This document shows, piece by piece, positions 9,886 through 42,300 of a DNA stretch of 42,300 nt. Both the position numbers and the translations under genes were made by a program. The notes under the pieces were generated by a model. The model saw nothing but the letters and a program-made list of their open reading frames with translations. It had not been told where the DNA came from and searched no databases. The stretch's first letter is position 1. Every line of letters starts with the position of its first letter. Source of the DNA: a virus; IMG/VR virus record IMGVR_UViG_3300029882_000053, positions 1 through 42,300 of that record; one strand, 5' to 3'.

Positions 9886-11000
9886 CGGCTTTCCTCGCAC
9901 CGGTTGGCCGTCAGCCGCGGGGCGCAGTCAAATTGAATGGCGAACTGATTACTGGTTGGGTGGATTTCGATCTGACCAATACCTCCTTCTTCAGCGCCGA
10001 CACGTTCCGCTGCAAGTTTGCCGGCGCACTTCTGCCGACAGACCGCAATGCCATCTGGTTTTCGAACCAGCAGGACATGTTTATCGAGCTGTTCATTGGT
10101 TTCCCACAGAACCCGAATGCTTACTCAGCCTCGGACCTGCAAAGTTGGATATACGGCCAGGTCGACAACATCGATGTCAACCCAATTACAAACGTGATTG
10201 AGGTGGATGGACGGGATCTGACGCGTGTCTTCATCGATACGAAGACGACGCAGAAGTGGCCGAACCAGACATCGAGCCAGATTGCGACTCAACTAGCCCA
10301 GGCGCATGGCCTGACGCCGGTTGTCACAGCAACGACGATGAAGGTTGGGAAGTACTACGAAATCGATCACGTCAACATGAGTGATGAGCGGTCGGAATGG
10401 GACATCCTGAACTATCTGGCCGATCAGGAAGGGTTCAAGGTGTGGGTGAGGGGTCAATCGCTCTACTTCCAACCGCCTCCCGACCCGGCCACGACGACGC
10501 CTTACCCGATCGTCTATCAGGTGGCGACAACCAGCGCGGGGCCGAAAGCGAATTTCGAAAACCTGCAGATGAAGCGGGCCTTGACTGTTTCCCGCGGCAT
10601 TCAGGTCAAGATCCGGAGCTGGAACAAGAAGTACGCCAAGGGCTTTACGGTCTCCTACCCGTCGAATGTCAAGACGATCAAGGTCGGATCCTCATCAGTG
10701 GGTGCGGGTGGCCAGATTTACTCCAAGACGATCGCGAACCTGACGCAGGACCAGGCATTGCAATACGCGCAGAACTGGTATCAGCAACTCGTCGCCCATG
10801 AGATGAAGCTGGAAAATCTCGAGATGCCGGGTGACAACAACCTCGACATCACATCGATCATCCAGTTTTCCGGCACTGGTACAGCCTTCGATCAGCAGTA
10901 CTTCCCCGACAGCATCCATCGCACCATGAGTTTCGACGGCGGTTATGAGATGACTGTTGGTGCCAAGAATCACGCACCGGACTCGCAGGTAACGCTATGA
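9882..11000 (+). CDS. Baseplate hub protein, gpD/gp44-like
   Basis: A 372-residue protein matching the late-control D / Mu gp44 hub type. An N-terminal barrel (VKLNGELITGWVDFDLTNTS...DTFRCKFAGALL) is followed by a central helical/beta insert and a C-terminal part with SDERSEWDILNYLADQEGFKVWVRGQ, a hallmark of hub proteins ('l..LA...gf..wv.g..l.f'). It links the tail tube to the gpV spike encoded next. Overlaps of 4 nt on both sides support co-translation. Confidence 0.8.
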   Translation: MTAFLAPVGRQPRGAVKLNGELITGWVDFDLTNTSFFSADTFRCKFAGALLPTDRNAIWFSNQQDMFIELFIGFPQNPNAYSASDLQSWIYGQVDNIDVNPITNVIEVDGRDLTRVFIDTKTTQKWPNQTSSQIATQLAQAHGLTPVVTATTMKVGKYYEIDHVNMSDERSEWDILNYLADQEGFKVWVRGQSLYFQPPPDPATTTPYPIVYQVATTSAGPKANFENLQMKRALTVSRGIQVKIRSWNKKYAKGFTVSYPSNVKTIKVGSSSVGAGGQIYSKTIANLTQDQALQYAQNWYQQLVAHEMKLENLEMPGDNNLDITSIIQFSGTGTAFDQQYFPDSIHRTMSFDGGYEMTVGAKNHAPDSQVTL

Positions 11001-11713
11001 GCATGGCCAAACTGGCGAACGCGATCCGTCAGCAGGCGCGCACATCGCAGGCTGAATTCACGACGCCCAGGCTTGCGACGATCAGCAGTTACGACGCATC
11101 GAACCATGCGGTCAAGGTCATCGTCCAGCCGGTCGATCCGGAACTGGGCGAGCAGGAGTCTAACTGGATGCCGCTCGGTACAATCGGGATCGGTAACGGA
11201 TGGGGTGTTGCGGTCGGCCCGCAGATCAACGATCAGGTGCTTGTCGTCTACGAAAACGGGGACTTCAGCAGCGGAACCATCGTCGCACGCGTGTTTTCGG
11301 TGGCGCAGCAGGCTATTGCGGTACCTTCTGGCGAGATTTGGGCGGTGCATCAGCAGGGGCAGTTCCTGAAACTGACCAACGACGGGAAGGTCACGCTCAA
11401 CGACAAAGCTGGTTCCACAGTCGTCATGAATGGCGATGGTACGGGCACGGCGACATTTGCCAGCGGACTGACGATCGACGCCAACACGACCATCAACGGG
11501 ACGCTGACGGTGACGGAAACGATCACTGGTGAGGCTGGCATCACGATCACCGGTACGAATCCTAGCGGCAACGCCTCGAACATCACCGGCACTTTCAATA
11601 TCAACGGCAACATCGCTTCGACGGGATCGATCACAAACAACGGTCACCGCGTCGACAGCACTCACCAGCACGTCAACTCTGGCGGCTCTGGACTCGGCGG
11701 CGTACCGCAATGA
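10997..11713 (+). CDS. Baseplate spike protein gpV
   Basis: A 238-residue protein. The N-terminal OB-fold region (~20-110, with WMPLGTIGIGNGWGVAVGPQINDQVLVVYENGD) is the conserved gpV core. From about 120 it becomes a repetitive beta-helix (ASGLTIDANTTINGTLTVT..., TGTNPSGNASNITG) that forms the needle. The tip ends with STHQHVNSGG; its H-x-H at residues 223/225 fits the metal-binding apex known in P2-type spikes. It acts at the tip of the baseplate to pierce the outer membrane. It is coupled to the hub and wedge genes by overlaps. Confidence 0.85.
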   Translation: MSMAKLANAIRQQARTSQAEFTTPRLATISSYDASNHAVKVIVQPVDPELGEQESNWMPLGTIGIGNGWGVAVGPQINDQVLVVYENGDFSSGTIVARVFSVAQQAIAVPSGEIWAVHQQGQFLKLTNDGKVTLNDKAGSTVVMNGDGTGTATFASGLTIDANTTINGTLTVTETITGEAGITITGTNPSGNASNITGTFNINGNIASTGSITNNGHRVDSTHQHVNSGGSGLGGVPQ

Positions 11714-22862: not shown

Positions 22863-23063
22863 TCATTCCTCGGGACGCCCTTCTAGCGTCTCCGACGCGT
22901 CATACGGGACAGTGGCAACCAGCCTCTGCGCCCACTCACATTCCCATTTCCCCGTCATCCGATTGTACTCGGGCCACGCGCTCCACCAATGCCATTCATA
23001 GTCGTCGTCCATGGCTAGATACTTCGCCCAGTAGGGCGCTTGGTCCCATGTCGGTTTGGTCAT
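22863..23063 (-). CDS. Small Trp-rich phage protein
   Basis: A 66-residue protein rich in Trp, Tyr and acidic residues (TWDQAPYWAKYLAMDDDYEWHWW). Its start overlaps the stop of the HNH-AP2 gene (ATGA), making it the last gene of the leftward operon. Proteins of this look are common small accessory proteins in phage early operons. No function is known to me. Confidence 0.6.
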   Translation of the reverse strand: MTKPTWDQAPYWAKYLAMDDDYEWHWWSAWPEYNRMTGKWECEWAQRLVATVPYDASETLEGRPEE

Positions 23064-23761
23064 GCCGCTTCCTTGATATCGATTGATCCATCGCGCTCTT
23101 TTTTGGCCTTACGATATGCTTCATGTGCAGATTCTGGCGATGGGAAAGACCCAAGATACTTTTTCTTGCGATCTATCTTAATGTAGGCCTCCCATCTGGA
23201 ATCGGCGATACGCTTAACTCCTGTGTATCCAGTTTTGTTCTTTTGCTTGCATTCAATCGTCAGCGTGCCACACGACCCAGCAACGGGTGCAATTAATTCA
23301 TGGTTGACGAAATCTCCATGGAGAACCACGGCAGCGCGACAGTACGCATCGTACGCGAACTCCGCTGTCGGGAAGCACCCAAGATGCGTTCTTTTTCCAT
23401 GCACCCGGATCGACGCCATCCACAGCTTTTGATTCTTGTTCCAACAAACGCCCTTATACCCGCTCGTATTTCTACTGTTGAGCGCGGTATTTCGCCCGTT
23501 TTCGGCAACGGTGCAAATTCTTAGGTTGTTCCGCTGATTGTTCCGTGGATTCCTGTCAATGTGATCGATCACCATTTTGTCTCCCCGACAGAGACCCATG
23601 ATGCCTCTATGCATATATATCGTAATCTCTTTTCTGGGCACATCGGGATGCATTGCCCTTCTAGCCCCATAGCCATTCGAATCGGCATGCCATTTGTACC
23701 TGGAAAGCACTTCGTAGTCCTCATCGTCCACTAGTGCGAAGAGGCCTTTTGTCAAAGGCAT
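23060..23761 (-). CDS. HNH homing endonuclease with two AP2 domains
   Basis: From ATG 23761 the product has 233 residues. It has an N-terminal N-link region (KGLFALVDDEDYEVLSRYKW), an HNH core (MHRGIMGL, His51; DHIDRNPRNNQRNNLRIC, ~66-83), then AP2-type DNA-binding modules at ~100-145 (TSGYKGVCWNKNQKLW) and ~176-220 (KTGYTGVKRIADSRW). The frame is open to 23893, but that extension looks non-coding. AT-richer than its neighbours, a sign of recent arrival. The upstream promoter region carries a LexA-type palindrome. Confidence 0.8.
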   Translation of the reverse strand: MPLTKGLFALVDDEDYEVLSRYKWHADSNGYGARRAMHPDVPRKEITIYMHRGIMGLCRGDKMVIDHIDRNPRNNQRNNLRICTVAENGRNTALNSRNTSGYKGVCWNKNQKLWMASIRVHGKRTHLGCFPTAEFAYDAYCRAAVVLHGDFVNHELIAPVAGSCGTLTIECKQKNKTGYTGVKRIADSRWEAYIKIDRKKKYLGSFPSPESAHEAYRKAKKERDGSIDIKEAA

Positions 23762-23930
23762 TTGCTTCAATTTCTTGTCCCGAATGAAGGTTGGGGACTC
23801 AGGGGAATCTCGCGGGCGATAGCCGCGTAAGGTATGATGGCAGAAGCCATGTGGCCCGGATCTCCTGAGGATCGGTTGCGTGGTCAGGGGCATTTGAGCG
23901 TTGACGCGCTCTTATGCCCCGCCTTCATTC

Positions 23931-24237: not shown

Positions 24238-24506
24238 TTCTCCCCTGCCCGCACTAGCGGCGCGTCCACCTTACCCATCCACCCAAGCGGTTCCTGAAAC
24301 AACCCTTCGCCATATGCATGAATGCAATCTGCATTGTCGCAAGCGCACCACCAGTCCCATTCACTCGCCTCTGGACGTTGATCGACCAGATCAGCGTTCG
24401 CGTTATAGGTGCTAACTGGGGAGCCGCAGGCGGCGCAAATGTCATGACCGCAGCATTCAGTATGTCGGTCTGATCGGGCCAGCGCGATCAATGGATTGGT
24501 ATTCAC
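24234..24506 (-). CDS. Small Cys-rich, probable zinc-binding protein
   Basis: A 90-residue protein with clustered cysteines: CCGHDICAACG (~18-28) and WWCACDNADC (~51-60), which could form a zinc ribbon. The remaining part is Trp/Gly-rich (EPLGWMGKV). Coupled on both sides by ATGA overlaps. The role is not known; small zinc proteins in phage early operons are often regulators or anti-host factors, which is inference. Confidence 0.6.
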   Translation of the reverse strand: MNTNPLIALARSDRHTECCGHDICAACGSPVSTYNANADLVDQRPEASEWDWWCACDNADCIHAYGEGLFQEPLGWMGKVDAPLVRAGEN

Positions 24507-24811
24507 ACTCCCTCCTTTTGCCCATCACTCGGTGCCCCGTCATCAACCCGCACCCTCGGAAGCCCCATTCTCGACCGCTCATCCAGCATTAGAACCCGAA
24601 AATTCTCAAGCGCTACCAGCCGGCCCAGACCCTCTGCGTTCCAGCATTTGTGGATAACCTCCCGGTAGTAGTCGGCCTCTGCCACCAATGCACGTAACCG
24701 GATGACTTCGAGCACTGTTCGCCGCGTTAGATCGTCATCCGATGTGCGGTAAAGCTCGCGCAGGTTTTCGGTGCTGGGACTGGCGAAGTCGGGGAGTTGG
24801 TGGCGGGGCAT
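24503..24811 (-). CDS. Hypothetical early protein under a LexA-type box
   Basis: A 102-residue, mostly helical protein (ENLRELYRTSDDDLTRRTVLEVIRLRALVAEADYY). Start 24811 is chosen because a palindromic site sits just upstream and the longer frame would run into the attP region; 24850 is an alternative ATG that would place the box inside the gene. It heads the three-gene leftward unit 24811-23968. No motif known. Confidence 0.55.
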   Translation of the reverse strand: MPRHQLPDFASPSTENLRELYRTSDDDLTRRTVLEVIRLRALVAEADYYREVIHKCWNAEGLGRLVALENFRVLMLDERSRMGLPRVRVDDGAPSDGQKEGV

Positions 24812-24824
24812 GGCATGTGCAAAT

Positions 24825-24844
24825 GACTGTATGTTTGTACAGTT
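24825..24844. promoter_or_regulatory. LexA-type SOS box upstream of a three-gene unit
   Basis: CTGT-ATGTTTGT-ACAG (24827-24842) with flanking A/T. It lies 14 nt upstream of the ATG at 24811, an operator-like position. It shares AACTGTAC...ATACAGT with the box at 23931 on the - strand. Confidence 0.6.
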
Positions 24845-24872
24845 TAGCATCGCCCGGCGCACCATCAAATCG

Positions 24873-24932
24873 TGGGAATGACGTTGTAAAAACACAATGA
24901 AATCAATGGTCAGTTTACGACTATCGTTCCCA
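24873..24932. other. Possible integrase arm sites, left of attP
   Basis: TGGGAAT (24873-24879) and GTTCCCA (24926-24932) are inverted copies of the TTCCCA element that also occurs three times on the int side of the core (25072-25100). Arm-type sites on both sides of the core are what a tyrosine integrase needs. No gene occupies 24845-24974. Confidence 0.4.
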
Positions 24933-24974
24933 TTTTCACAGATCGAACCCTTGCAGAATATGGCTTGATGCATA

Positions 24975-25022
24975 GGATTGTGATTCCTGTTGTCGTGGGT
25001 TCGAGCCCCATCAGCCACCCCA
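24975..25022 (+). other. attP core: 3' half of tRNA-His
   Basis: 48 nt from GGATTGTGATTCC (anticodon arm with GTG) through the T-arm GGTTCGAGCCC to AGCCACCCCA closely match the 3' part of bacterial tRNA-His. The 5' half (GGTGGCT... and D-arm) is missing, so this is not a functional tRNA gene. Phage-type genes lie on both sides and the integrase is 85 nt away, which identifies it as attP rather than attL/attR. Integration would rebuild the host tRNA-His gene. Confidence 0.85.
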
Positions 25023-25047
25023 ATCCCCATAAGCTTCTCAAGACATC

Positions 25048-25069
25048 CTACTGTGTAAACTCACAGTAG
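25048..25069. promoter_or_regulatory. Third CTGT-N8-ACAG palindrome, between attP core and int
   Basis: CTACTGTG-N6-CACAGTAG is a perfect 8-bp inverted repeat that also meets the CTGT-N8-ACAG rule. It lies between the core and the candidate arm sites. It may be a LexA or phage-repressor site affecting recombination, or an accessory-factor site. Confidence 0.5.
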
Positions 25070-25071
25070 AT

Positions 25072-25100
25072 AATTCCCAGAAAATTCCCAATTTGGGAAT
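25072..25100. repeat. Repeated AATTCCCA elements, candidate arm sites / int terminator
   Basis: AATTCCCA occurs at 25072-25079 and 25083-25090, and inverted as TTGGGAAT at 25093-25100. The inner pair forms ATTCCCAA-N-TTGGGAAT, which on the - strand is followed by TTTTC and could also terminate int transcription. Confidence 0.5.
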
Positions 25101-25106
25101 CCTCCG

Positions 25107-26126
25107 TTAAAGCCCCCGTCTCTTCACGATCTTGCTGCGGTCATAAACTCGCGCCGTTGTCGCTGGGTTCGCGTGCATATCCGGCAGTGCTCCGCGTTCC
25201 TGTTTATGCTGCGTCACGTAGTATGCGCGCAGGTCGTGAAATGTGAATCGACGGACTAGCTTCTTTAGCCTCAGCGCCTCGTTCATCAACTTCCCCCACA
25301 TCGCCTTGAAGCCTGACTGGGTGTAGTGCGTCCCTGAACGGTTCGGGAAAACATACAGACCGCCTTTCTCGATTCCCTTGAGTCGACCCAGCAATCCCCG
25401 AATCCTCGGCGTCATCTCGATATGCTCGATGACTTCGCCGCGCTTCTTGCCCCGCTGCTTCGCGCGCTTGACGCGGATCACGCCGATCGCCTCATCTACC
25501 TGTGGCCAAGACAGGTCCAGAAACTCCACCTTGCGGTTGCCGGCGAGCGCCGCATACTCTGCTGCCATCCCGATCACCGCCCGCTGGCCGCCCTGTTGAG
25601 AAAGCCAGGTAGCGAACGCCGCGAAGTCTTCCGGCTCCGGCGCTTCCGTTCGTGGCTGCTCCTCGTTTCGCTTCACTTCGCGGCAGGGGTTGTGCTTCGC
25701 CTCGCCCCGCTCGATGGCAAGCCCGATCAGATTGGACAGCAACGCCATCTCCCGGTTGGCACGCACCGGCGCGGACGCCCGCTCTTTGCGCAGGTAGGTC
25801 GCCACATCGGTAGCGTCAATGTCCGCCGCGCGCGAGTCGCCAAAAATCTCGAGCAATGGCCCGCTACACTGCACGTAGTCGGTTCGCGTATAGGCGGAGT
25901 ACCGTTTCCATCCGGGCGTTTCCTGAAACTGTTCCCACAGGCGCTTGACCGTTCCTATATCACCACCCGCACCAGTCAGGTCGAGAACCTTTTTGACCGC
26001 GGCAATCTTGTCCGAGCCAAGGTTGACTGGCTTCCCGTCCATCGGATGGTAGCGATAGGTGAAGCCCTTTTTCGTCTGACGGGCCTCCATGCGCGGAAGC
26101 AGTCCATCGCGCGGCGTGCGTTTCAT
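25107..26126 (-). CDS. int: Tyrosine recombinase, phage integrase
   Basis: A 339-residue protein from ATG 26126 (a start 15 nt upstream is possible). The N-terminal ~60 residues form an arm-binding-like domain (RMEARQTKKGFTYRYHPMDGK) and ~60-155 the core-binding domain. In the catalytic domain Arg198 (LAGNRKVEFLDL), His297-x-x-Arg300 (FTFHDLRAYYVTQH) and the nucleophile Tyr328 (ATTARVYDRSK) are present. It lies next to the tRNA-His attP and would recombine it with the host tRNA-His gene. Its start overlaps the DUF4224 gene by ATGA, giving an xis-int-like pair. Confidence 0.9.
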   Translation of the reverse strand: MKRTPRDGLLPRMEARQTKKGFTYRYHPMDGKPVNLGSDKIAAVKKVLDLTGAGGDIGTVKRLWEQFQETPGWKRYSAYTRTDYVQCSGPLLEIFGDSRAADIDATDVATYLRKERASAPVRANREMALLSNLIGLAIERGEAKHNPCREVKRNEEQPRTEAPEPEDFAAFATWLSQQGGQRAVIGMAAEYAALAGNRKVEFLDLSWPQVDEAIGVIRVKRAKQRGKKRGEVIEHIEMTPRIRGLLGRLKGIEKGGLYVFPNRSGTHYTQSGFKAMWGKLMNEALRLKKLVRRFTFHDLRAYYVTQHKQERGALPDMHANPATTARVYDRSKIVKRRGL

Positions 26127-26332
26127 GCTGCATTTTTCCACTTGGGTGTTGTTCTACGGGCATTCTCTTCTGGCCGACGGTTGACCTGCTCCCATGTAAG
26201 CATTGGATGTCCGTCGGCGCGGCGGGGGGCATCTATCCCTAATGCCCTCTTGATCCATCGGGATTGTGCTGCCCCTTGTTTTAGACCTCCTGTGAGCGCT
26301 ATCAGGTCTTCATTGGTTAGAATATGCATCAT
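26123..26332 (-). CDS. DUF4224 protein, excisionase-like
   Basis: A 69-residue protein (MMHILTNEDLIALTGGLKQGAAQSRWIKRALGIDAPRRADGHPM...). It matches the DUF4224 pattern 'lt.eel..lTg.k....Q.rWL...gi....r.dG.p.lt', a small winged-helix-like protein usually found just upstream of phage integrases. It probably acts as Xis/directionality factor or int regulator. The 5' end lies within the end of the NUMOD4-HNH gene (22-nt overlap), so the nuclease has inserted immediately upstream of its start. Confidence 0.7.
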   Translation of the reverse strand: MMHILTNEDLIALTGGLKQGAAQSRWIKRALGIDAPRRADGHPMLTWEQVNRRPEENARRTTPKWKNAA

Positions 26333-26894
26333 GATCACCGTTAGTATGGGCGCATACGTGACCCCACGATGCTCCTGTAGAGATCCAATAGATGTTGGTC
26401 CGCGAGACTTCAAACTGTTTCGCTATCTCGGCCTTGTCTATCCCCGAAGCCAATAGCGATTTAATGGCCCTCACGTCCGATTCTGACAGTTTTGCATTTG
26501 AATTTTTATTGCCGATCTGCGCCGTCCCATGAGTAATCTTGTCAGCTATATTGTCGACATGGAGGCTGTGCCGGAGATTAAGCAACGCGTTATTGGCCCG
26601 GTCTCCATCGTTATGCGCAACCTCATGATCGTCTGGAACCGGCCCTAGAAATGCCACCGCTACAACTCTGTGAAGCCTGAATACTTTCTTCACCCCATCT
26701 TTGCACAAATTGACCTGACGATATCCCTTGGCCGTTACTATTGGTTTCAGGATTTTTTCTGGTATGCGCCTAGTCGATCCATGGCATGATCCGATGGCTC
26801 TCGCCAGAGATCTTACCCGGCCGAAATCGCTTACTTCGTATATACCTTCATACCCGATTACAGGAAGCCACACTTCATTTGTCGTGGTAGACAT
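26310..26894 (-). CDS. HNH endonuclease with NUMOD4 and HTH (homing type)
   Basis: A 194-residue protein from ATG 26894 (GGAG 6 nt upstream). The N-terminal NUMOD4 motif is EVWLPVIGYEGIYEVSDFGRVRSL (~7-30). An HNH_3-like core follows: FRLHRVVAVAFLGPVPDDHEVAHNDGDRANNALLNLR. The C-terminal module (AKLSESDVRAIKSLLASGIDKAEIAKQFEVSRTNI) is a helix-turn-helix DNA-binding module. Typical free-standing homing endonuclease of phage early regions. Lower GC than its neighbours. It lies just upstream of the xis-int pair. Confidence 0.8.
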   Translation of the reverse strand: MSTTTNEVWLPVIGYEGIYEVSDFGRVRSLARAIGSCHGSTRRIPEKILKPIVTAKGYRQVNLCKDGVKKVFRLHRVVAVAFLGPVPDDHEVAHNDGDRANNALLNLRHSLHVDNIADKITHGTAQIGNKNSNAKLSESDVRAIKSLLASGIDKAEIAKQFEVSRTNIYWISTGASWGHVCAHTNGDHDAYSNQ

Positions 26895-26926
26895 CAAAAC
26901 TCCAAAATCACGTTTAGTAACCCGAA

Positions 26927-27022
26927 TTATATTCGCGCATAATGCTGTCCATTGCCCTTCGACTCGCTGATTTCGAGGATGACTGTTTCGCCGAAGAGGT
27001 CGATTACTTCGCGGCGTTCCAT
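26927..27022 (-). CDS. Tiny ORF, possibly a remnant next to the HNH gene
   Basis: 31 codons (MERREVIDLFGETVILEISE..., ending GQHYARI) starting 2 nt after the stop of the 27025 gene. It reads like the front of a phage protein and ends 32 nt before the HNH gene, so it may be a gene cut short by the HNH insertion, or a complete small protein. Not supported by any further evidence. Confidence 0.35.
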   Translation of the reverse strand: MERREVIDLFGETVILEISESKGNGQHYARI

Positions 27023-27024
27023 GG

Positions 27025-27558
27025 TTAGGCCTCCGCATGCGCGTCCAATGCATCAAGTGCTGCGTACATGTCCCATTTCTGCGACCAATCGGGCGGATCG
27101 TAGTCCTTAATCTCATCGTTCCAATCGCCATTGAACGGGTCTTCGCAGACAGACGTCCAACGGAATCCGATGGCGGGGCAGCCCAGAGGTGACTCGAATA
27201 TCTCCGCGATACGTGGCCAGTGATTGGCGCGCTCTGGGTCGACCGGAAAGGCGCGCAGGAATTCCCTGATATCCGCTGCCGCGCGCGCGTAGTTGGCCTG
27301 CGTCACGATCACATGGTCGTATGTCATGGCGAGGACCGCGCGCAATGGCTTGGGAATGTCCATGCGCTTCCAGAGCGGCCACAGTTCCTCGGTACGGAAC
27401 ATGTATTCAGTATCCGGATAGCGGCTGAACCCACTGCTAACATACCTGGTGAACATCTTTCCCCATACGACCGGCGCGCTGCCGTGTCCGTTGCGGAGTT
27501 CGGCGATTTCTTCGTGGCGCTCACCAGGCCAAACTGCATAAACGTCTGTCGCGCTCAT
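27025..27558 (-). CDS. Hypothetical early protein
   Basis: A 177-residue, Trp- and Arg-rich soluble protein (VYAVWPGERHEEIAELRNGHGSAPVVWGKMFTRYV...). No motif I recognise. Its start overlaps the upstream stop (27555-27558). It is likely a phage accessory protein of the long leftward operon; neighbouring genes give no clear functional hint. Confidence 0.65.
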   Translation of the reverse strand: MSATDVYAVWPGERHEEIAELRNGHGSAPVVWGKMFTRYVSSGFSRYPDTEYMFRTEELWPLWKRMDIPKPLRAVLAMTYDHVIVTQANYARAAADIREFLRAFPVDPERANHWPRIAEIFESPLGCPAIGFRWTSVCEDPFNGDWNDEIKDYDPPDWSQKWDMYAALDALDAHAEA

Positions 27559-27866
27559 CGCTGCTCCTCAGTTGTTTGTCCCATCTCTTCCAGCACCTCA
27601 ATCGCCCATCTCAACGTGGCTTCCGTTCGCGGGCCGGATGCGTTTTCGAGACACCAGCGGAGTTCAGCTTTCAGTGGTTGAAGATCGGACACGGGTTTCT
27701 CTACCGTTTCAAGCAGCTTGCGCGCGAACTGAACATAGCCCCACTGCTTGCAGAAGCCTTCGTGACCACCGGGCATTCTGTTCCAGATTGCTTCGATTTC
27801 GTCGCCCGTCATTGGGTATCCTTGTTGGCAAATAGCGTAGTCGGGAGTACGCAAAGTTGTGGTCAT
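27555..27866 (-). CDS. Hypothetical early protein
   Basis: A 103-residue protein from ATG 27866, chosen because it overlaps the stop of the upstream gene by 4 nt; ATG 27893 would give nine more residues. The sequence (DYAICQQGYPMTGDEIEAIWNRMPGGHEGFCKQWGYVQFARKLLE) is helical. The body resembles small proteins often found in phage early regions; function unknown. Confidence 0.6.
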   Translation of the reverse strand: MTTTLRTPDYAICQQGYPMTGDEIEAIWNRMPGGHEGFCKQWGYVQFARKLLETVEKPVSDLQPLKAELRWCLENASGPRTEATLRWAIEVLEEMGQTTEEQR

Positions 27867-28033
27867 TGCTTCGACCTCTCGTAATTCGCCCATGTCTGTA
27901 TTGCCTCATTGACTGTTTGCTCGGAGTGGCCGCGCTGCAACAACGCTGCGCGCAGTGCGCCGACTTTTCGGATGTACTGGGATCGGGCCAGATTGACGGC
28001 ATCGCGCAGGGCTTGGTAGGCGTCGTCGGTCAC
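27863..28033 (-). CDS. Small helical early protein (GTG start)
   Basis: A 56-residue protein starting at GTG 28033 that overlaps the upstream stop (GTGA) and ends overlapping the next ATG. It reads MTDDAYQALRDAVNLARSQY then RAALLQRGHSEQTVNEAIQT, a compact helical protein. It fills a stretch that would otherwise be empty and is coupled on both sides, supporting reality. Confidence 0.55.
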   Translation of the reverse strand: MTDDAYQALRDAVNLARSQYIRKVGALRAALLQRGHSEQTVNEAIQTWANYERSKQ

Positions 28034-28329
28034 GGTGTAGCCTCGAACATATCAATCGTCTTGTCGTCGCGCGCGGGCTCGGGTTCCTGACTGGCAAGGA
28101 TCTGCTTCAGGTTGCTTTCTCCGTCACCACCGTAGGGCAGGCAATAGCCGTCCCAACCATGGCGGAGCAGATCGGCGTCCGAACTGACGACACCATCGAC
28201 ATTGAAAGCCTTGGATGCATCGTCGCGCCATGCGTCATCGGCCCAGTCCTCCGCCACTTCATGCGCGTGACTTTCGTCCTCAGCCATCACGATCATCGTG
28301 AAGCTGACTTCTACGGCGTATGGTTTCAT
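28030..28329 (-). CDS. Acidic early phage protein
   Basis: A 99-residue protein, strongly acidic (EDESHAHEVAEDWADDAWRDD), with beta-like start MKPYAVEVSFTMIVMAE. The shape (short beta strand then acidic helices) is typical of small phage proteins that bind host nucleic-acid enzymes, but I have no specific assignment. Both ends overlap neighbours. Confidence 0.6.
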   Translation of the reverse strand: MKPYAVEVSFTMIVMAEDESHAHEVAEDWADDAWRDDASKAFNVDGVVSSDADLLRHGWDGYCLPYGGDGESNLKQILASQEPEPARDDKTIDMFEATP

Positions 28330-28751
28330 GGCTTCTCCTCACTCTGCGACCGGGCGGCGATAGCGGCATCTACTCGCTCATCGAAACTATCGGGCGTAAC
28401 CTCGGTACGGTTGTTCCCGCTATCATCTCTGACGGCTTTCGTTGTCTCGCGCAAATAGCGATACCGCTCAGCATCCATCTGCACCGCAAACAACTCCTGC
28501 GCATGCTTCTCGCAATCAGCGCGGAATTCGAGGCGGAGGCGCTGGTTTTCTTGCGTGAGCGCTTCTACCTCCCTCTCCGACTGCCGCAGACTCGCTGCAT
28601 ACAGCGTCGCCAGTTCGGTCTTTGCGGTGAACTGGCCGGAGAGGGATTCGAGAGCATCGGCTGCATCGTCCTCGTCCGCGTTCGGCAGCCTTCCGGTCGG
28701 CTTCTGGTGGCGCAACCGCTCTATCAGAGCCTTGATTTCGTCTGCTGTCAT
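28326..28751 (-). CDS. Coiled-coil early protein
   Basis: A 141-residue protein with a coiled coil at ~50-85 (LATLYAASLRQSEREVEALTQENQRLRL) and the motif DAERYRYLRETTK (~92-104), commonly found in small phage proteins of the Ea22-like kind. An N-terminal helix (ADEIKALIERLRHQK) starts it. The gene ends immediately before the next ORF's stop region and is in the same leftward operon. Function unknown. Confidence 0.65.
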   Translation of the reverse strand: MTADEIKALIERLRHQKPTGRLPNADEDDAADALESLSGQFTAKTELATLYAASLRQSEREVEALTQENQRLRLEFRADCEKHAQELFAVQMDAERYRYLRETTKAVRDDSGNNRTEVTPDSFDERVDAAIAARSQSEEKP

Positions 28752-29006
28752 TTACCAGTCCCTCGTCTTGAGAAGTTCCTTCACCGACAGCAGGCATTGT
28801 CTGTCAGGCAAATCGCCGCCGCGCCACACCCGGACGACAGAGCAGAAGTAGGCGCGACCAGTTTCGATTCCATCCTTGCGCTCACACATCTTCACGGTGT
28901 CATCTGTTTGATACCCGCGATCAGGAACAGCGAATCCACCATCTACCCGACCACTCCACACCATGTCGAACAGCTCGTGATCGCATTTGAGAATGTGGAC
29001 GGTCAT
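28752..29006 (-). CDS. ASCH/DUF3850-like small protein
   Basis: An 84-residue protein whose opening VHILKCDHELFDMVWSGRVDGGFAVPDRGYQTDDTV resembles the DUF3850/ASCH-type layout, where 'H.lk....f..v..G.K..e.r..dr.y..gD.v.l' is typical. ASCH/PUA-like domains bind RNA or modified bases. Family assignment is tentative. The start overlaps the upstream gene's stop. Confidence 0.5.
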   Translation of the reverse strand: MTVHILKCDHELFDMVWSGRVDGGFAVPDRGYQTDDTVKMCERKDGIETGRAYFCSVVRVWRGGDLPDRQCLLSVKELLKTRDW

Positions 29007-29509
29007 GGCTGCTCCGCATCTGGTTGTGCTGCATCCGGAAGAGTGCGCGCAATAATGTCGTCAACTGTGTATGACCATTGATGCTGCCACTGCTGGCGGG
29101 CAAGATGGACCACGCCGCGTATCTGCTCATCGGTCAGCACTTCCGCCCTTGATGGTTGCGCTGCTGCGGGATGGGTGGCCTCGTCTTTTAGGTGGTGAAC
29201 GACTTCTTGAAGGTCCGAAAGCAACACCATGCGCCAGACATCACCAACGGGTCGACCAGAATTTCCAACGCTTCTACTGGACGGCGGTTCCTTGGCGGCT
29301 TCTATCAGCCTACTCATCACGAACTCCTTTGTGCGCCATACATCAGGCACCGCCTCCTCTGCCGACGCTATTGGATCGCGATGGGTGTAGACGATTCGGC
29401 GTTCCACATATCCGAAGGTCTCGTACTTGTCGTAGACGTCTTTCGATACGTCGCCCCAAACGGTTTCGGGATGCGACCATCGTGTTTGGTAGACCGGCTC
29501 GCTCGTCAT
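29003..29509 (-). CDS. Hypothetical early protein
   Basis: A 168-residue protein. The N-terminal half (VYQTRWSHPETVWGDVSKDVYDKYETFGYVERRIVY) contains short beta strands. The C-terminal part has LTDEQIRGVVHLARQQWQHQWSYTVDDIIART, a short module I have seen attached to various small phage proteins. Function is not known. ATGA overlaps on both sides tie it to the Mom-like gene upstream. Confidence 0.6.
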   Translation of the reverse strand: MTSEPVYQTRWSHPETVWGDVSKDVYDKYETFGYVERRIVYTHRDPIASAEEAVPDVWRTKEFVMSRLIEAAKEPPSSRSVGNSGRPVGDVWRMVLLSDLQEVVHHLKDEATHPAAAQPSRAEVLTDEQIRGVVHLARQQWQHQWSYTVDDIIARTLPDAAQPDAEQP

Positions 29510-30033
29510 TCAGCATCTCCTGCGGCAGCTGCCGCCCTTCCGATTGGCATAAGAGGTTCAGCGCCTTTTGCTGACCACGCCCAAATCCATTTGTCGCGTC
29601 CTTTCCGGCCGCTCCGCGCATCGGTGCCACTATGGCTATAGGCGATGCGCTGCCAGCCATCAAAGCGGTACGTGTTGCCGTTGTGGAGGTCGGCATCCTG
29701 GTAACTGATAACGTGGTCGTACCCAAGCAACGGGAAAACGAATTCTCGCCACAGGCGAAGCGCGACGCGGCACAGATGGGGGCGCACCGCACACAGGCGC
29801 GAAAGCTCACAGGTATTTGCGCGGGTCGATGTCTTTTGGCCGCCACCGACACACTCGCGAATCAGTGTTGACTGCATGGTCAGGGCAACGGGGCGGCCGT
29901 TCTCGTACAAAGCGAAGTGCTTGCCGGCTTCGTTGCCGCGCTCAAGTGGACCCATCTTGTGGCCCCACTCGACGAGGCAACCATTGGCTGCCGCGAGGTC
30001 AATCTCGTCGAATGCAACGAGCGGGAGAATCAC
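29506..30033 (-). CDS. Mom-like GNAT-fold protein, candidate DNA modification enzyme
   Basis: A 175-residue protein from GTG 30033 (GAGGAGA 9 nt upstream, GTGA overlap with the previous gene); the longer frame is not coding-like. The middle reads CELSRLCAVRPHLCRVALRLW (~75-95), then YDHVISYQDADLHNGNTYRFDGW (~105-127) and SHSGTDARSGRKGRDKWIW (~133-151). This order recalls the Mu Mom family: a GNAT-like fold in which 'lSR.c....' is followed by 'vSya...hG.iY...gw'. Mom modifies adenines to protect phage DNA from restriction. The match is by pattern only. Confidence 0.55.
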   Translation of the reverse strand: MILPLVAFDEIDLAAANGCLVEWGHKMGPLERGNEAGKHFALYENGRPVALTMQSTLIRECVGGGQKTSTRANTCELSRLCAVRPHLCRVALRLWREFVFPLLGYDHVISYQDADLHNGNTYRFDGWQRIAYSHSGTDARSGRKGRDKWIWAWSAKGAEPLMPIGRAAAAAGDAE

Positions 30034-30635
30034 GTCTTGTTCTCCTCGGCTGACGCTATTGGAGCGGGAGGTTTGATTCCGGCGCTGGTGGCGATTTGCT
30101 CGATCTCGGCGAACTGGTCTTCGTCTAGAATACCTGCTAGGCGCGCCATAATCCGCTGTATGGCTTGCGGCGCTACTGGTACAGCCTTCTGTGCGAGAGC
30201 GGCGCGACGTTTCCATCCGTCCCACATGTCATCAATGGTTTCTGAAGCGTAACCTTCTCCATCACGTTTGGTTATGGCAATCCATTCGCGTTCTGATACA
30301 CCGGATCGACAGCTATCCTCAAACCGCGCCCGTTCGTCGCCACCTTGCGGCGCGGGGGCGGCTTGGGCAGCGATACGCCTTAGTCCGTCGCTGTCGTCAT
30401 CAACCAACACGCGAAACATGGCGCCTAAGTGAGCGTCCGATGCGCGACCTTCCTCAGCGTCAAGCATGAGAGCGAGCAATCCGCTGCGGGCTGTTTTCTC
30501 GCCCCCATCACCAGAATGGTCAGGTTGGGCGGCGAGGATTTCGCGAAGCGGGGCCGCCAACGGTTCATTGCCCATCGATACGGCCAAATCAATCGCGATA
30601 TTAAGCGCGCTTTCTTGCAGGACGGTCAGTTTCAT
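30030..30635 (-). CDS. Hypothetical early protein
   Basis: A 201-residue protein from ATG 30635 (overlapping the upstream stop). It begins KLTVLQESALNIAIDLAVSMGNEPLAAPLREILA, a helical module, followed by a Pro/Ala/Gly-rich linker. A later part (FEDSCRSGVSEREWIAITKRDGEGYASETIDDMWDGWKRRAA) resembles a repeat-like module often found in Burkholderiales phage proteins. No enzymatic motif. Confidence 0.6.
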   Translation of the reverse strand: MKLTVLQESALNIAIDLAVSMGNEPLAAPLREILAAQPDHSGDGGEKTARSGLLALMLDAEEGRASDAHLGAMFRVLVDDDSDGLRRIAAQAAPAPQGGDERARFEDSCRSGVSEREWIAITKRDGEGYASETIDDMWDGWKRRAALAQKAVPVAPQAIQRIMARLAGILDEDQFAEIEQIATSAGIKPPAPIASAEENKT

Positions 30636-30856
30636 TTCGACTCCGTAGGGGCGGCGGCGAGGCCGCGCCATATAATGTTGTTCTGCTCTTGCTCGCCAAT
30701 GAATCCAACGATCTCACCGCTGAAATTCGCGTTGTAAAACCGTGTTCCGGCCCACCAGATGGCCGAAACACAACAAAGGCATTCTTCCCTGCGTTCGTAA
30801 ATTCCGCATCGAACCGGCTTTTGATCGCTGGCGTACCAGCCTGTTTCTTCAGTCAT
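30632..30856 (-). CDS. Small hypothetical phage protein
   Basis: A 74-residue protein rich in Cys and Trp (WYASDQKPVRCGIYERREECLCCVSAIWWAGTRFYNANFSGE). Its layout (short N-terminal strand, 'W.G..FY' then strand) is seen in many small phage proteins that appear next to nucleases. It overlaps the next gene by 4 nt. Confidence 0.6.
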   Translation of the reverse strand: MTEETGWYASDQKPVRCGIYERREECLCCVSAIWWAGTRFYNANFSGEIVGFIGEQEQNNIIWRGLAAAPTESK

Positions 30857-30877
30857 GGTTACTCCAATGAGGCGGGG

Positions 30878-31465
30878 CTAGGCGGTCACTTCAACGCGAC
30901 AGCGCCGTGCTATTTCAACAAGGAACTTCGCCAGCTCGATAGGCGTATGCTCGCGTTCGGCCTTCGGGATTTCCGGCCGGCGCTTGTTGCGCGTACCGTC
31001 CCGACGCCTGCCGCTTGTGCTTACTACCGCTGGCGCCTCTCCAAGCACGAGGGGAATAGCCGGAATATCGGTAGCGGAACATCCGACGATGTACAGCAAT
31101 GTTTTCTTTTCAGCGTTGTGTCCGAACCAATGCTGATGAATCGGTAGCGTCCAACCGCCGAACTCGTCTGGCATCCCCACTGTACCGAGCCGCTGGTCTT
31201 CCCAAAGTCTCGAAGCAAACGGATGCTCAAGCACGCCCCCGTATTGCCGGATCTGCGCGATCGCCCAACGAGCCAAATCCTTTTCATCGAGCCGCGGCTT
31301 AGCCATATGGGAGAGCCTTCCCCACGCGCGGCAGGGCGGATGAGCAACGACAGGAGCGTCACCCGGCCAGTTGCGCGCATCCCGCTCGATGTCCCACACA
31401 TCACAGCCCGGCAGCGTCTGGTAGACGCTATCCTTGCGCGCAAACAGAACGGCCACTTGCTGCAT
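30878..31465 (-). CDS. PPC-motif protein, cytosine-methyltransferase-like but reduced
   Basis: A 195-residue protein. VVAHPPCRAWGRLSHM (~39-54) resembles the catalytic PPC loop of C5-cytosine methyltransferases, GGVLEHPFAS (~76-85) the E-N-V strand, and EREHTPIELAKFLVEIAR (~170-187) their C-terminal 'TPRE.A' helix. The canonical SAM motif FxGxG is missing; the start is QQVAVLFARKDSVYQTLPGCDVWDIERDAR. A catalytically altered or single-domain relative is possible. It is a conserved but unstudied phage family as far as I know. It stands two genes from the Mom-like gene and 116 nt from the 2OG-type gene. Confidence 0.55.
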   Translation of the reverse strand: MQQVAVLFARKDSVYQTLPGCDVWDIERDARNWPGDAPVVAHPPCRAWGRLSHMAKPRLDEKDLARWAIAQIRQYGGVLEHPFASRLWEDQRLGTVGMPDEFGGWTLPIHQHWFGHNAEKKTLLYIVGCSATDIPAIPLVLGEAPAVVSTSGRRRDGTRNKRRPEIPKAEREHTPIELAKFLVEIARRCRVEVTA

Positions 31466-31581
31466 CTCTCATCTCCAATAATCCAACATCGCCGATACCA
31501 CGAGCAGCATGGCGATACGGTTGTTTGATGCTCTCGAAATCGGGGCCGCGGCCCGTTGCTGCGCCGAGGCGCTGTTGGTCT

Positions 31582-33937: not shown

Positions 33938-34594
33938 TTATGCTGCTTCTTTGCGAATTGAATCGCGGCGCCCAAGTAATTCAAATTTGACGCCGTTTAT
34001 TTCAGTCGCGCCCCGCCTTATGCGATGACTGGTGCGCTTATAGTCAAACCCATGACGCCTCGCAAATTCCGCCATCGTCATCAAGTCATCGGCGACGGAA
34101 ATCATGACGTTGGATCGGGTGTTGTTTCGTTGCTCAATGGTTGTTGCCCAGCGGCAATTCCCCGGCTCGTAGTTCCCGTTCACATCATTGCGTTCAATCG
34201 AGTACCCCGGCGGCTGCTCGCCCATGTCGGCAAGGAAGGTGGAGAAATTTTCTCGCCATGCATCACACACCGTAATTCCCCTGCCACCATAGTGCGGGTA
34301 TGCCTCCTGTTGAGGGGAATGGCATCTGTTGACCATTCCCATCCAAACCTGGAAAGTTTTTGATTTCTTCCCCTTCCGCCCATGCCCATGTTTTGTGTTT
34401 GCGGCTATTCGCGCCTCCCTGCCATAACATCCGCAAGAAATAGTTTCGCCGCCTTTTAGGGCTTTTGGGTAAATGCGACTCTCCGATCCGCATATGCACC
34501 GACACAACCATCTTCGCCTTGGTTTAGACTTATCAAGCGATATGACTGTCCACCGACCGTAGACATCCCCAGGGAAAATTGGCAGAGGCCTCAC
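33938..34594 (-). CDS. HNH-like homing endonuclease (CGxxS...SCGC type)
   Basis: A 218-residue protein from GTG 34594 (GTGA overlap with the previous stop). It starts GDVYGRWTVISLDKSK, then a zinc-ribbon-like WLCRCICGSESRIYPKALKGGETISCGC. The C-terminal nuclease part has YGGRGITVCDAWRENFSTFLADMGEQPPGYSIERNDVNGNYEPGNCRWAT, the characteristic signature of this homing-nuclease family. A helix-turn-helix-like tail (MTMAEFARRHGFDYKRTSHRIR) follows. AT-richer than the neighbouring genes. It separates RecT from the coiled-coil gene. Confidence 0.75.
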   Translation of the reverse strand: MRPLPIFPGDVYGRWTVISLDKSKPRRRWLCRCICGSESRIYPKALKGGETISCGCYGREARIAANTKHGHGRKGKKSKTFQVWMGMVNRCHSPQQEAYPHYGGRGITVCDAWRENFSTFLADMGEQPPGYSIERNDVNGNYEPGNCRWATTIEQRNNTRSNVMISVADDLMTMAEFARRHGFDYKRTSHRIRRGATEINGVKFELLGRRDSIRKEAA

Positions 34595-39162: not shown

Positions 39163-39453
39163 GACTTTTCTCCATAGGAGTGCTTAATTCGTTAAGGTTT
39201 GCCCTCAGTGATGGCGACTGGAAACCGTTCGCTACCAGCACTTTCGATATGGTCATTGCCGAGGTGTTGAACCCCGCAATCACCACCACTCAGGGCGCCC
39301 GTCTATTCCGGGCTGTCATCGGTAAGTTTTAAGCCCTAACCGATCCAGCTTGACACGCTACACGCCGTCACCCTGGCGGGGTGCGCTCTCTCACGGAAGT
39401 CGCACCACTCATTGCGCCCACTACAGGCCCGGTAGGTGTCACGTCGAGTTCGG
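39163..39453. other. 290-nt gap between early gene blocks
   Basis: No - strand gene continues through this stretch. It holds an imperfect hairpin (CACGCCGTCACCCTGGCGGGGTGC region, ~39359-39383) and a short + strand frame (39180-39332). TTGACA occurs at 39350 on the + strand but without a matching -10. A leftward promoter for the 39162 block may lie here, but I cannot point to clear boxes. Confidence 0.4.
39180..39332 (+). CDS. Possible small counter-strand ORF
   Basis: 50 codons from GTG 39180 (AGGA just upstream). The product (LNSLRFALSDGDWKPFATSTFDMVIAEVLNPAITTTQG...) looks protein-like in composition and codon use, in an otherwise empty gap and against the operon direction. No family recognised, so it is only a candidate. 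Confidence 0.3.
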   Translation: MLNSLRFALSDGDWKPFATSTFDMVIAEVLNPAITTTQGARLFRAVIGKF

Positions 39454-40234: not shown

Positions 40235-40705
40235 CTATCCGTAGTTAGCAAATTCACCATGAATTTCATCCGCAGCTTTTCGATATGCTGCGTGAGCCTC
40301 TTCGGCGGTATCAAACATTCCAAGATGCTTATTCTTTCCGTCCATCTGAATCTGAGCTTGCCATCTGCCCATATCTTCTCTCCAGCCAGCACCTTTTAGC
40401 CCGGATCGATTGCTCTTTGCCGGCCCCCGATTGCACATGTTTTGCCCTTGGGTGCAAACACGAAGATTTGATCGCTGGTTATTAAGCGGGTTGTGATCTA
40501 TATGATCGACTTTGCGAGTATCGCCATGTTCCAAGCCCATGATCTGGCGATGCATGCCCTGCGTTCTCTGCTTACCATTGACGCGCGGCGAGTAGCGAAA
40601 CGCATATCCAGGACCGTTCAGATACCATTTGAATTTAGACAATTCCTCGAAGTCTGAATCGTCTACCATCGCAAACGCGCCTTTGTTTAGCGGTATTAGC
40701 TTCAT
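40235..40705 (-). CDS. HNH homing endonuclease with AP2 domain
   Basis: A 156-residue protein of the same family as 23060-23761 but with a single AP2 module. It has the N-terminal KGAFAMVDDSDFEELSKFKW and HNH residues MHRQIMGL (His52), DHIDHNPLNNQRSNLRVC (~67-84, Asn80). The C-terminal AP2-like part is SGLKGAGWREDMGRWQAQI (~101-119) and AYRKAADEIHGEFANYG. GAGAGCAG lies upstream of the ATG. AT-richer than the neighbours, so probably a recent insertion. Confidence 0.8.
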   Translation of the reverse strand: MKLIPLNKGAFAMVDDSDFEELSKFKWYLNGPGYAFRYSPRVNGKQRTQGMHRQIMGLEHGDTRKVDHIDHNPLNNQRSNLRVCTQGQNMCNRGPAKSNRSGLKGAGWREDMGRWQAQIQMDGKNKHLGMFDTAEEAHAAYRKAADEIHGEFANYG

Positions 40706-41480: not shown

Positions 41481-41834
41481 TTAGAACACGCTTTCGTATT
41501 CCTGCTCGCGGGCCGCGAGATACGCTTCGTGCGCAGCTTTGCCGATCTGGCAGAGCGTCGGCGATGCGCGCATATGGCCGTCACGGGGATGGAACTGGGC
41601 GACCTGCTCGTTGAGGTAGAACGACATGTAGCAGCGCTTGGCTCGGGCTTGCTCTTTCGCGCCAATGTGCGGCATGTACTTGCTGCGATTGCCCGCGAAG
41701 TGCGTGGTGCGATCCATACGGCGAGGATTGTTGCCAGTGGGCCGGTCATCCGAAAGCGTCACGACATCCATACCAGCATTCATGAGCGCAGCGGCAACGC
41801 CCATACTGGCGCCGATAATTCCGATTCGTTTCAT
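41481..41834 (-). CDS. First protein of the leftward early operon
   Basis: A 117-residue protein. MKRIGIIGASMGVAAALMNAGMDVVTLSDD looks like a Rossmann-type nucleotide-binding start, but no full dehydrogenase domain follows; the rest is basic and helical (KEQARAKRCYMSFYLNEQVAQFHPRDGHMRASP). AAAGGAAAG is upstream of the ATG. It lies 64 nt downstream of the structured region 41898-42243, in the same direction, so it may carry that RNA as leader. No family known. Confidence 0.55.
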   Translation of the reverse strand: MKRIGIIGASMGVAAALMNAGMDVVTLSDDRPTGNNPRRMDRTTHFAGNRSKYMPHIGAKEQARAKRCYMSFYLNEQVAQFHPRDGHMRASPTLCQIGKAAHEAYLAAREQEYESVF

Positions 41835-41860
41835 TTCACTTTCCTTTCGTTATACTAAAT

Positions 41861-41883
41861 GCGTGCAGCAAAGCGCTACACGC
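41861..41883 (-). repeat. Hairpin between the structured RNA and the first early gene
   Basis: On the - strand GCGTGTAGC-GCTTT-GCTGCACGC forms a 9-bp stem with one U-G wobble. It follows the structured region by 14 nt and precedes the ribosome binding site of the 41834 gene. There is no T-run, so it is more likely part of the RNA architecture than a terminator. Confidence 0.5.
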
Positions 41884-41897
41884 GGGTATCTTTGGTA

Positions 41898-42243
41898 GTG
41901 CGCCGTATCGGGGCGCGGGAATTCAGCAGTGTTCTCAGCAGAGCATTGTTACTTTCGGATGACCTTCAGTTCCGTACCGGCCATGCTGGGGCTTGTTAGC
42001 TGCTTCAGACTTACAGGGCAGTTCACAGGAACGATACTCAGCCATCGAGGGAGCTCAATGCTCTGTTGGGAAAACTGCTACACGTGGGGCTCGGTCTGTA
42101 TTCCCGGCCCCACGCCTTCCGACCTAACCAGACAGATCCTGTCTCCCTGGCTAGATTGGGCGCTCCGCTTTCAACACCAGCGGCTGCTTTGTTCGGTGCC
42201 TCTTTCGAGGATGGCTGGCTAAACGAGCCCTTATACGGCGCAC
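41898..42243 (-). ncRNA. Candidate structured RNA, about 346 nt, family unknown
   Basis: The ends pair perfectly: GTGCGCCGTAT (42243-42233) with ATACGGCGCAC (41908-41898), then GGGC/GCCC inside. A nested long-range helix joins AGCAG-TTTTC and CAGAGCATTG (5' side, inner part 42065-42056) to CAATGCTCTG (41948-41939), GAGAA and CTGCT. Local hairpins are CCTC-GAAA-GAGG with a GNRA loop (42210-42199), CTAGCC/GGTTAG enclosing AGACAG/CTGTCT (42154-42124), and CGTGGGGC..CGG/CCG..GCCCCACG (42114-42083). Where pairing is imperfect, the - strand shows G-U wobbles while the + strand would show A-C mismatches. No good ORF covers it. It may be an independent RNA or an operon leader. Confidence 0.6.
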
Positions 42244-42300
42244 CATGCACCGTCAATACTCCGAATTTTTAAAGATCGATTCGCAAGCGGCTCTGCCGGG
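42244..42300. other. Right edge, upstream of the structured RNA
   Basis: An AT-rich patch (TTTAAAAATT, - strand) lies near 42266-42275. On the - strand TTGACG (42251-42256) and TATAAG (42230-42235) resemble promoter boxes with a short 15-nt spacer, but a start from them would lose the 5' end of the 11-bp helix. The real promoter may therefore lie further right, outside the window. Confidence 0.3.

Follow-up and report, generated by a model that had tools for sequence, protein, structure and literature searches.

Only a few large structured RNAs have been described from phages, and the function of most of them is unknown. tRNAs have been reported in the linkers of GOLLD RNAs (PMC12286853), and the put RNA of phage HK022 is about 70 nt long and consists of two stem-loops (PMC9378689). 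Complexes of boxA and Nus factors act at long untranslated RNAs (PMC5725501, PMC7862264); at rRNA the Nus complex chiefly helps folding (PMC5725501). The boxA of the Legionella Lens CRISPR locus was given as GTTCTTTAAAA (PMC7862264).

The DNA analysed here, referred to as the window, is a stretch of 42,300 nucleotides (positions 1 to 42,300 of IMG/VR record IMGVR_UViG_3300029882_000053). The minus strand of 41898-42243 carries an RNA that is real and new. Sequence comparison shows that its fold has been retained by evolution in a temperate phage and nine relatives while entire side-domains were swapped, and the RNA probably helps the phage to control transcription of its first genes. The comparative evidence for it is strong, its site in the early operon is fixed and its domains can be swapped; the link to boxA opens its role to direct tests.

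Homologues of the element

Searches of phage and plasmid collections with the window element using blastn returned nothing similar, and those with L033, L034 and L030 returned just isolated modules, coding matches and one tRNA-Lys. A protein encoded next to the element led to contig L004, which carries a 151-nt stretch 81% identical to the window, and patterns based on the blocks common to both were then searched in IMG/VR. The family members obtained were L004/L007, L009, L030 (= L031), L033, L034 (= L036), L035 (= L032) and L037, and L050 and L051 were added through a pattern in hairpin H5. The family comprises 10 distinct sequences on 13 contigs including the window (12 further viral contigs, 9 distinct).

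The surveys of genomes covered samples only: the covariance model gave no true homologue in 394 genomes from the family of a Massilia genome, and the pattern search gave no homologue in 369 genomes of the same class. Two weak model hits among the 394 genomes, L048 and L049, were rejected as coding or chance. Scanning of genome contigs with the patterns produced chance matches only, the pattern match L039 was also due to chance, and L002 and L003, reached via the neighbouring gene 41481-41834, were without the RNA.

Secondary structure and covariation

The natural limits of the element are wider than those of a preliminary description made from the sequence of the window, and run from approximately 42277 (the boxA-like sequence) to 41849 (a conserved UUAGUAYAAC). 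Its length across the family is ~350-600 nt, and the core of ~150 nt (42251-42084) holds, in this order, H1, H2, H3, an H-type pseudoknot, H4 and H5 (Table 1). None of the reading frames stays open across the core in every one of the ten sequences, in line with the earlier view that no convincing protein is encoded.

Table 1. Features of the RNA element and the gene that follows it in the window.
Feature	Position	Strand	Sequence and remarks
Small hairpin	42288..42299	-	CCGGC-AGA-GCCG; just 5' of the boxA-like site; from sequence and fold
boxA-like sequence	42264..42277	-	GATCTTTAAAAATT; 5' boundary; same position relative to the core as the exact TCTTTAACAA of relatives
H1	42237..42251	-	GGUGC-AUGGU-GCGCC; covaries in homologues
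H2	42217..42229	-	GGCU-CGUUU-AGCC; differing arms pair in homologues; poorly aligned, weaker evidence
H3	42199..42210	-	CCUC-GAAA-GAGG; 100% of cells paired, 2/4 pairs compensatory
H-type pseudoknot	42165..42198	-	100% of cells paired
Pseudoknot stem 1	42198-42195 with 42178-42175	-	CACC with GGUG
Pseudoknot stem 2	42183-42179 with 42169-42165	-	CCGCU with AGCGG
Pseudoknot loop 1	42194-42185	-	GAACAAAGCA; conserved
H4	42122..42156	-	10-bp stem, inner GACAGGAUCUGUC; 11/17 pairs compensatory, 91% of cells paired
H5	42084..42113	-	GUGGGGC...GCCCCAC; stem varies yet pairs in 8/10 sequences
H5 loop	42103-42095	-	GAAUACAGA; conserved, 9 nt
Exchangeable domain	41918..42079	-	Closed by AGCAGU/ACUGCU and by 42068-42056 with 41948-41936
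3' terminal hairpin	41900..41916	-	GCGCC-CCGAUAC-GGCGC; GCCCC-UGGAUAC-GGGGC in L004, L034 and L051
3' boundary	41849..41883	-	Hairpin 41883-41861, then UUUAGUAUAAC
First gene 3' of the RNA	41481..41834	-	117 aa; no Pfam or PHROG match

RNAalifold, run on a MAFFT alignment of eight sequences that was made free of structure, predicted 34 pairs, 18 of them with double changes. For scoring of the core, the pseudoknot stem was added and the weak pairs 97-100/147-150 were omitted. In these eight sequences the five-helix core including the pseudoknot was paired in 94.8% of 270 cells, and 20 of 34 core pairs carried changes on both sides; compensatory changes, which the preliminary description had named as the test to apply to homologues, are thus present. 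The covariation score was 0.571 against 0.243 +/- 0.027 after shuffling, and 0 of 500 shuffles reached 0.571, a count that is not a probability, the eight sequences being related; slid controls, which keep the relatedness, clearly failed, with covariation scores <= 0.112. The covariance model R1, built from the eight sequences, recognised L050 at E = 3e-31 and L051 at E = 9e-25, both of which lie outside the model set and were found by another route. R1 permits immediate surveys of prophages.

The arms of H1 occur in homologues as GUCC/GGAC, GUCG/CGAC, GCGC/GCGC, GUGC/GCAC and GGCUC/GAGCC. Stem 1 of the pseudoknot is found as CACC/GGUG, CUCG/CGAG and CGCG/CGCG, and stem 2 as CCGCU/AGCGG, CUCCU/AGGAG and a third version, UUCGCU/AGCGAA, contributed by L050 and L051. 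The loop of H3 is GAAA, UUCG or CGCAA in relatives, and H5 is replaced by a different stem in L034. Pseudoknot loop 1 and the 9-nt loop of H5 are nearly invariant and alike in sequence; the former is GAACAMAGCAR in the first eight sequences and GAACAAAGCU and GAACAUAGCU in L050 and L051, respectively, and the latter is GAANACAGA, or GAGACAGA in L033. The block CCCGGCAGAGCCG...TTGCGAAT...TCTTTAA of the small-hairpin region is also present in L009.

Comparison with the structural model of the preliminary description revealed that the helices it listed are present, namely hairpins including the GAAA tetraloop (CCUC-GAAA-GAGG), a composite long-range helix (42068-42056 with 41948-41936, 12 of 13 pairs) and an 11-bp complementarity of the two ends (42243-42233/41908-41898). 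The pseudoknot had been overlooked, the long nested helix takes a revised role as the closure of the exchangeable domain, and the end-to-end helix, proposed as joining both ends, is not conserved. The 5' arm of the latter overlaps the conserved local hairpin H1, across its 3' arm, and the 3' arm overlaps that of the conserved terminal hairpin; relatives form these two hairpins instead, and both covary locally. L050 has an identical 5' arm, GTGCGCCGTAT, yet the partner ATACGGCGCAC is absent from the stretch read, and L004 and L034 keep the 3' hairpin with no end-to-end complementarity of the 11-bp type. On these grounds the 11-bp helix was rejected as a family feature; it may be an alternative fold in the window copy.

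The strong fold claimed for 41898-42243 was borne out by folding of the minus strand (-147.3 kcal/mol, z = -5.72, with 0 of 100 dinucleotide shuffles as low). The plus strand folds on a par (z = -5.74) and, because both strands fold equally well, fold energy cannot assign the strand, so that the earlier reading of a selected minus-strand RNA gains support from comparison and none of its strand specificity from fold energy alone. The strand of the RNA is named solely by covariation and G-U bias: over the aligned sequences, the same core pairs on the minus strand include 22 G-U cells versus 5 A-C cells, which favours an RNA of the minus strand and upholds the asymmetry first seen in the window, with G-U on the minus and A-C on the plus strand. 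Equal folding of both strands would suit an array of palindromes acting at the DNA level, such as an origin, a recombination site or a packaging site, but the G-U/A-C asymmetry, the conserved loops and the pseudoknot would be unexpected there. Chance is excluded by covariation, and we regard this last pair of explanations as disfavoured and scarcely credible.

boxA sequences

The boxA-like sequence of the window is the best of the upstream stretch, with 1 of 400 shuffles as good; it is degenerate (3/13 mismatches) and differs by one mismatch from the Legionella Lens CRISPR boxA (PMC7862264). The exact boxA TCTTTAACAA was identified in four of the nine relatives, once each in L009, L033, L050 and L051, in each case upstream of the RNA and on the same strand. 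In the window, L030 and L037 the sequence is degenerate, and L004, L034 and L035 have a weak boxA or none. Exact copies were also identified in the Detreviruses IME307 and FBPa47, in the early region near repressors. In L033, boxA and the RNA core are separated by an ORF (~10590-11175, minus strand) that resembles annotated phage endonuclease genes at the DNA level and looks like an insertion.

Exchangeable domains and tRNA-like genes

H5 is followed by AGCAGUUUU and then by a domain that a 10-14 bp helix closes off; from group to group its sequence shows no relationship, and in most members it ends in CUGAA. At this site, helix-closed domains of unrelated sequence are found in L004, L009/L033, L034/L051, L030 and L050, and the window and L004 have the core in common and a different domain. 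The element is modular, with a fixed core followed by a domain, closed by a helix, that changes entirely from one relative to another. L004 carries two exchangeable domains, and its element is ~600 nt long (z = -4.27). One part of the L030 domain is common with L004 (97% over 38 nt) and one matches a gene gap at an unlinked site in the Pseudomonas Detrevirus FBPa47 (91% over 65 nt). In L033 a tRNA-like gene (10291-10388, minus strand; 4-nt anticodon call, tgag) lies inside the RNA at the AGCAGUUUUU site and is flanked by duplicated AGCAGTTTTT; ARAGORN identified no tRNA in the homologous loci of L004, L009, L030, L031, L034, L036 and L037.

Such domains raise the possibility of a large structured non-coding RNA acting in trans in the manner of GOLLD and ROOL, for which boxA would serve transcription and folding only. 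The RNA would be released and would act via its conserved loops and swappable domains, for example as a scaffold or as a decoy against host functions. We hold this to be quite possible and a close rival of the leader reading discussed below. A large multidomain RNA with a pseudoknot and conserved unpaired loops, the full replacement of domains around a constant core (L004 versus the window), a tRNA inside the RNA of L033 as in GOLLD linkers (PMC12286853), the occurrence of one module alone in the FBPa47 gene gap and the mainly folding role of boxA at rRNA (PMC5725501) are all consistent with it, while the constant location on the coding strand, heading the early operon, the lack of an identified processing site or terminator and the absence of any relation to GOLLD or ROOL by Rfam argue against it.

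Other structured modules and a further tRNA-like sequence were noted during these comparisons. The RNA of L034 is followed by a tRNA-Lys(CTT)-like sequence (~9960-10050, plus strand) that ARAGORN does not call and that is similar to a tRNA-Lys(CTT) annotated in Achromobacter phage 2-1; because of this resemblance, the reading as a suppressor tRNA was dropped. The window has another gap between genes that is structured (39163-39335, minus strand; local z = -3.2, closing helix of ~13 pairs). Its GATGACAGCC..GGAAWAGAC..GGC hairpin recurs, the stem being changed, in L033 7501-7790 (minus strand), as does the tail CTTAAYGAAT, and the two are possibly another module family. Several structured, helix-closed noncoding modules also lie between early genes of FBPa47 (L040, 2940-3090) and IME307 (L042, 2116-2580 and 3620-4020), and such early-operon modules of Detreviruses are swapped between relatives at fixed joints.

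Genomic context

The preliminary description placed the element upstream of the early operon, which holds in broad terms; where the surroundings are available in relatives, the RNA does not stand at an isolated start and instead follows a repressor and one or two small genes of the same strand. In L055 (the record of L009) the upstream genes on the same strand, the first after a strand switch, encode an HTH repressor, a fragment of an S24 peptidase and a KilA-N protein, and weaker repressor-like matches occupy the same place in L054 and L056. According to gene calls made by a simple script, the repressor-like genes of all three records are the first on the strand of the RNA, ~1-2 kb upstream of it. 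In the window, RecT-like, exonuclease and integrase genes lie on the same strand 3' of the RNA. A repressor upstream followed by RecT-like, exonuclease and integrase genes matches the arrangement of the lambda pL arm.

The genes 3' of the RNA vary between relatives, as does their distance; relatives of the 41481-41834 gene lie near the RNA in L030 and L034 and are absent at that place in L004. In 8 homologous loci the 3' boundary carries a conserved UUAGUAYAAC-like motif (41859-41849, minus strand, in the window), in most cases a short distance ahead of the first start codon; it is neither a terminator nor a clear promoter. An RNA lying 5' of an early gene, with this motif before the first start codon, could be a riboswitch-like leader regulating in cis the translation or stability of the next gene. 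We find this improbable, as the next gene differs between relatives, the distance varies and a conserved expression platform or start-site pairing was not seen.

The early operon of the window contains four HNH-type genes (40235-40705, 33938-34594, 26310-27131 and 23060-23893, minus strand). The frequency of HNH genes in the window and the endonuclease-like ORF between boxA and the RNA of L033 would fit a mobile or self-processing element (a group I or group II intron, an HEG-associated RNA or a retron ncRNA). This origin is very improbable, given that the Rfam models for group I and group II introns, HEARO and retron ncRNA gave no match, permissive E-value included, that the element lies between genes and not within one, and that no reverse transcriptase was found among the proteins scanned, a non-exhaustive set.

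Discussion

We tentatively read the element as the leader of a lambda-pL-like early operon, similar to those of rrn and put and loaded with Nus factors via boxA, and give this reading somewhat less than an even chance. After initiation at the early promoter, boxA in the growing transcript would load NusB/S10 and other Nus factors on RNA polymerase, and the core would fold behind the polymerase and, with loops GAACAAAGCA and GAAUACAGA, act in cis like nut or put RNA or the rrn leader. The polymerase would then cross the long untranslated stretch and the early genes (small, RecE/RecT-like and integrase genes) without terminating, and the swapped domains would be cargo on this platform, tolerated or selected.

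The constant location, the boxA link and the lack of any preference for a particular next gene suggest a leader acting on elongating polymerase, as nut, put and rrn do. An RNA working in trans is suggested just as much by the swapping of entire domains and by the tRNA cargo. A Nus complex that mainly aids folding, as at rRNA (PMC5725501), suits the leader and trans readings alike. Several observations weigh against the leader: boxA is imperfect in the window and weak or missing in three relatives (L004, L034 and L035); intrinsic terminators are not in excess downstream (22 observed versus 18.1 expected); no sigma-70 promoter is recognisable near the element, the contig ending 57 bases upstream of the first base of the RNA as named in the preliminary description; the put RNA of HK022 is far smaller (~70 nt; PMC9378689); and rapid domain exchange, the FBPa47 module and the L033 tRNA are no less compatible with an RNA that is processed or acts in trans.

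A cis platform and trans cargo can be combined. A new modular class of phage RNA, in which a boxA-led pseudoknotted platform heading lambda-pL-like operons carries interchangeable domains, and sometimes tRNAs, as trans-acting anti-host cargo, is conceivable, although we think it rather unlikely. Action in cis would make the element a large antitermination platform of temperate phages built from RNA; action in trans would make it a new phage RNA that swaps domains.

Comparison with known RNAs

The preliminary description could not match the element to GOLLD, ROOL, RNase P, tmRNA or an omega-type RNA and had proposed a search of Rfam. At the gathering thresholds of Rfam 15 the window gave no match, the 601-nt end region searched to E = 10 gave one chance snoRNA hit (13.7 bits), and the window and homologues together (E up to 1 to 10) matched no family, GOLLD and ROOL included. 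A search of the literature found no description of this RNA within the limits of the library searched. The Proteo-phage-1 RNA (RF03044), an Rfam sRNA named for proteobacterial phages, measures 82 nt and does not match this element; a sub-threshold match to it (27.9 bits, gathering 42) lies elsewhere in the early region of FBPa47 (L040, 4735-4816).

The element resembles GOLLD and ROOL in that all are large multi-helix phage RNAs with variable regions, and a tRNA can lie inside or near them. It differs from them in sequence and structure, which do not match, and in its smaller size (core ~150 nt, whole ~350-600 nt), many GOLLD RNAs exceeding 800 nt and a solved example of ROOL measuring 659 nt. 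With HK022 put it has in common a structured RNA heading the early operons of a lambda-like temperate phage; put is ~70 nt, whereas this RNA has 350-600 nt and a five-helix core with a pseudoknot, and R1 found nothing in HK022 24500-31500. Unlike the rrn leader, the element belongs to a phage early operon, its boxA is degenerate in several members including the window, and its Nus role is predicted; what it has in common with the rrn leader is a long structured untranslated RNA with, in part of the family, an exact or near boxA ahead of it and, in several members, a small hairpin before boxA.
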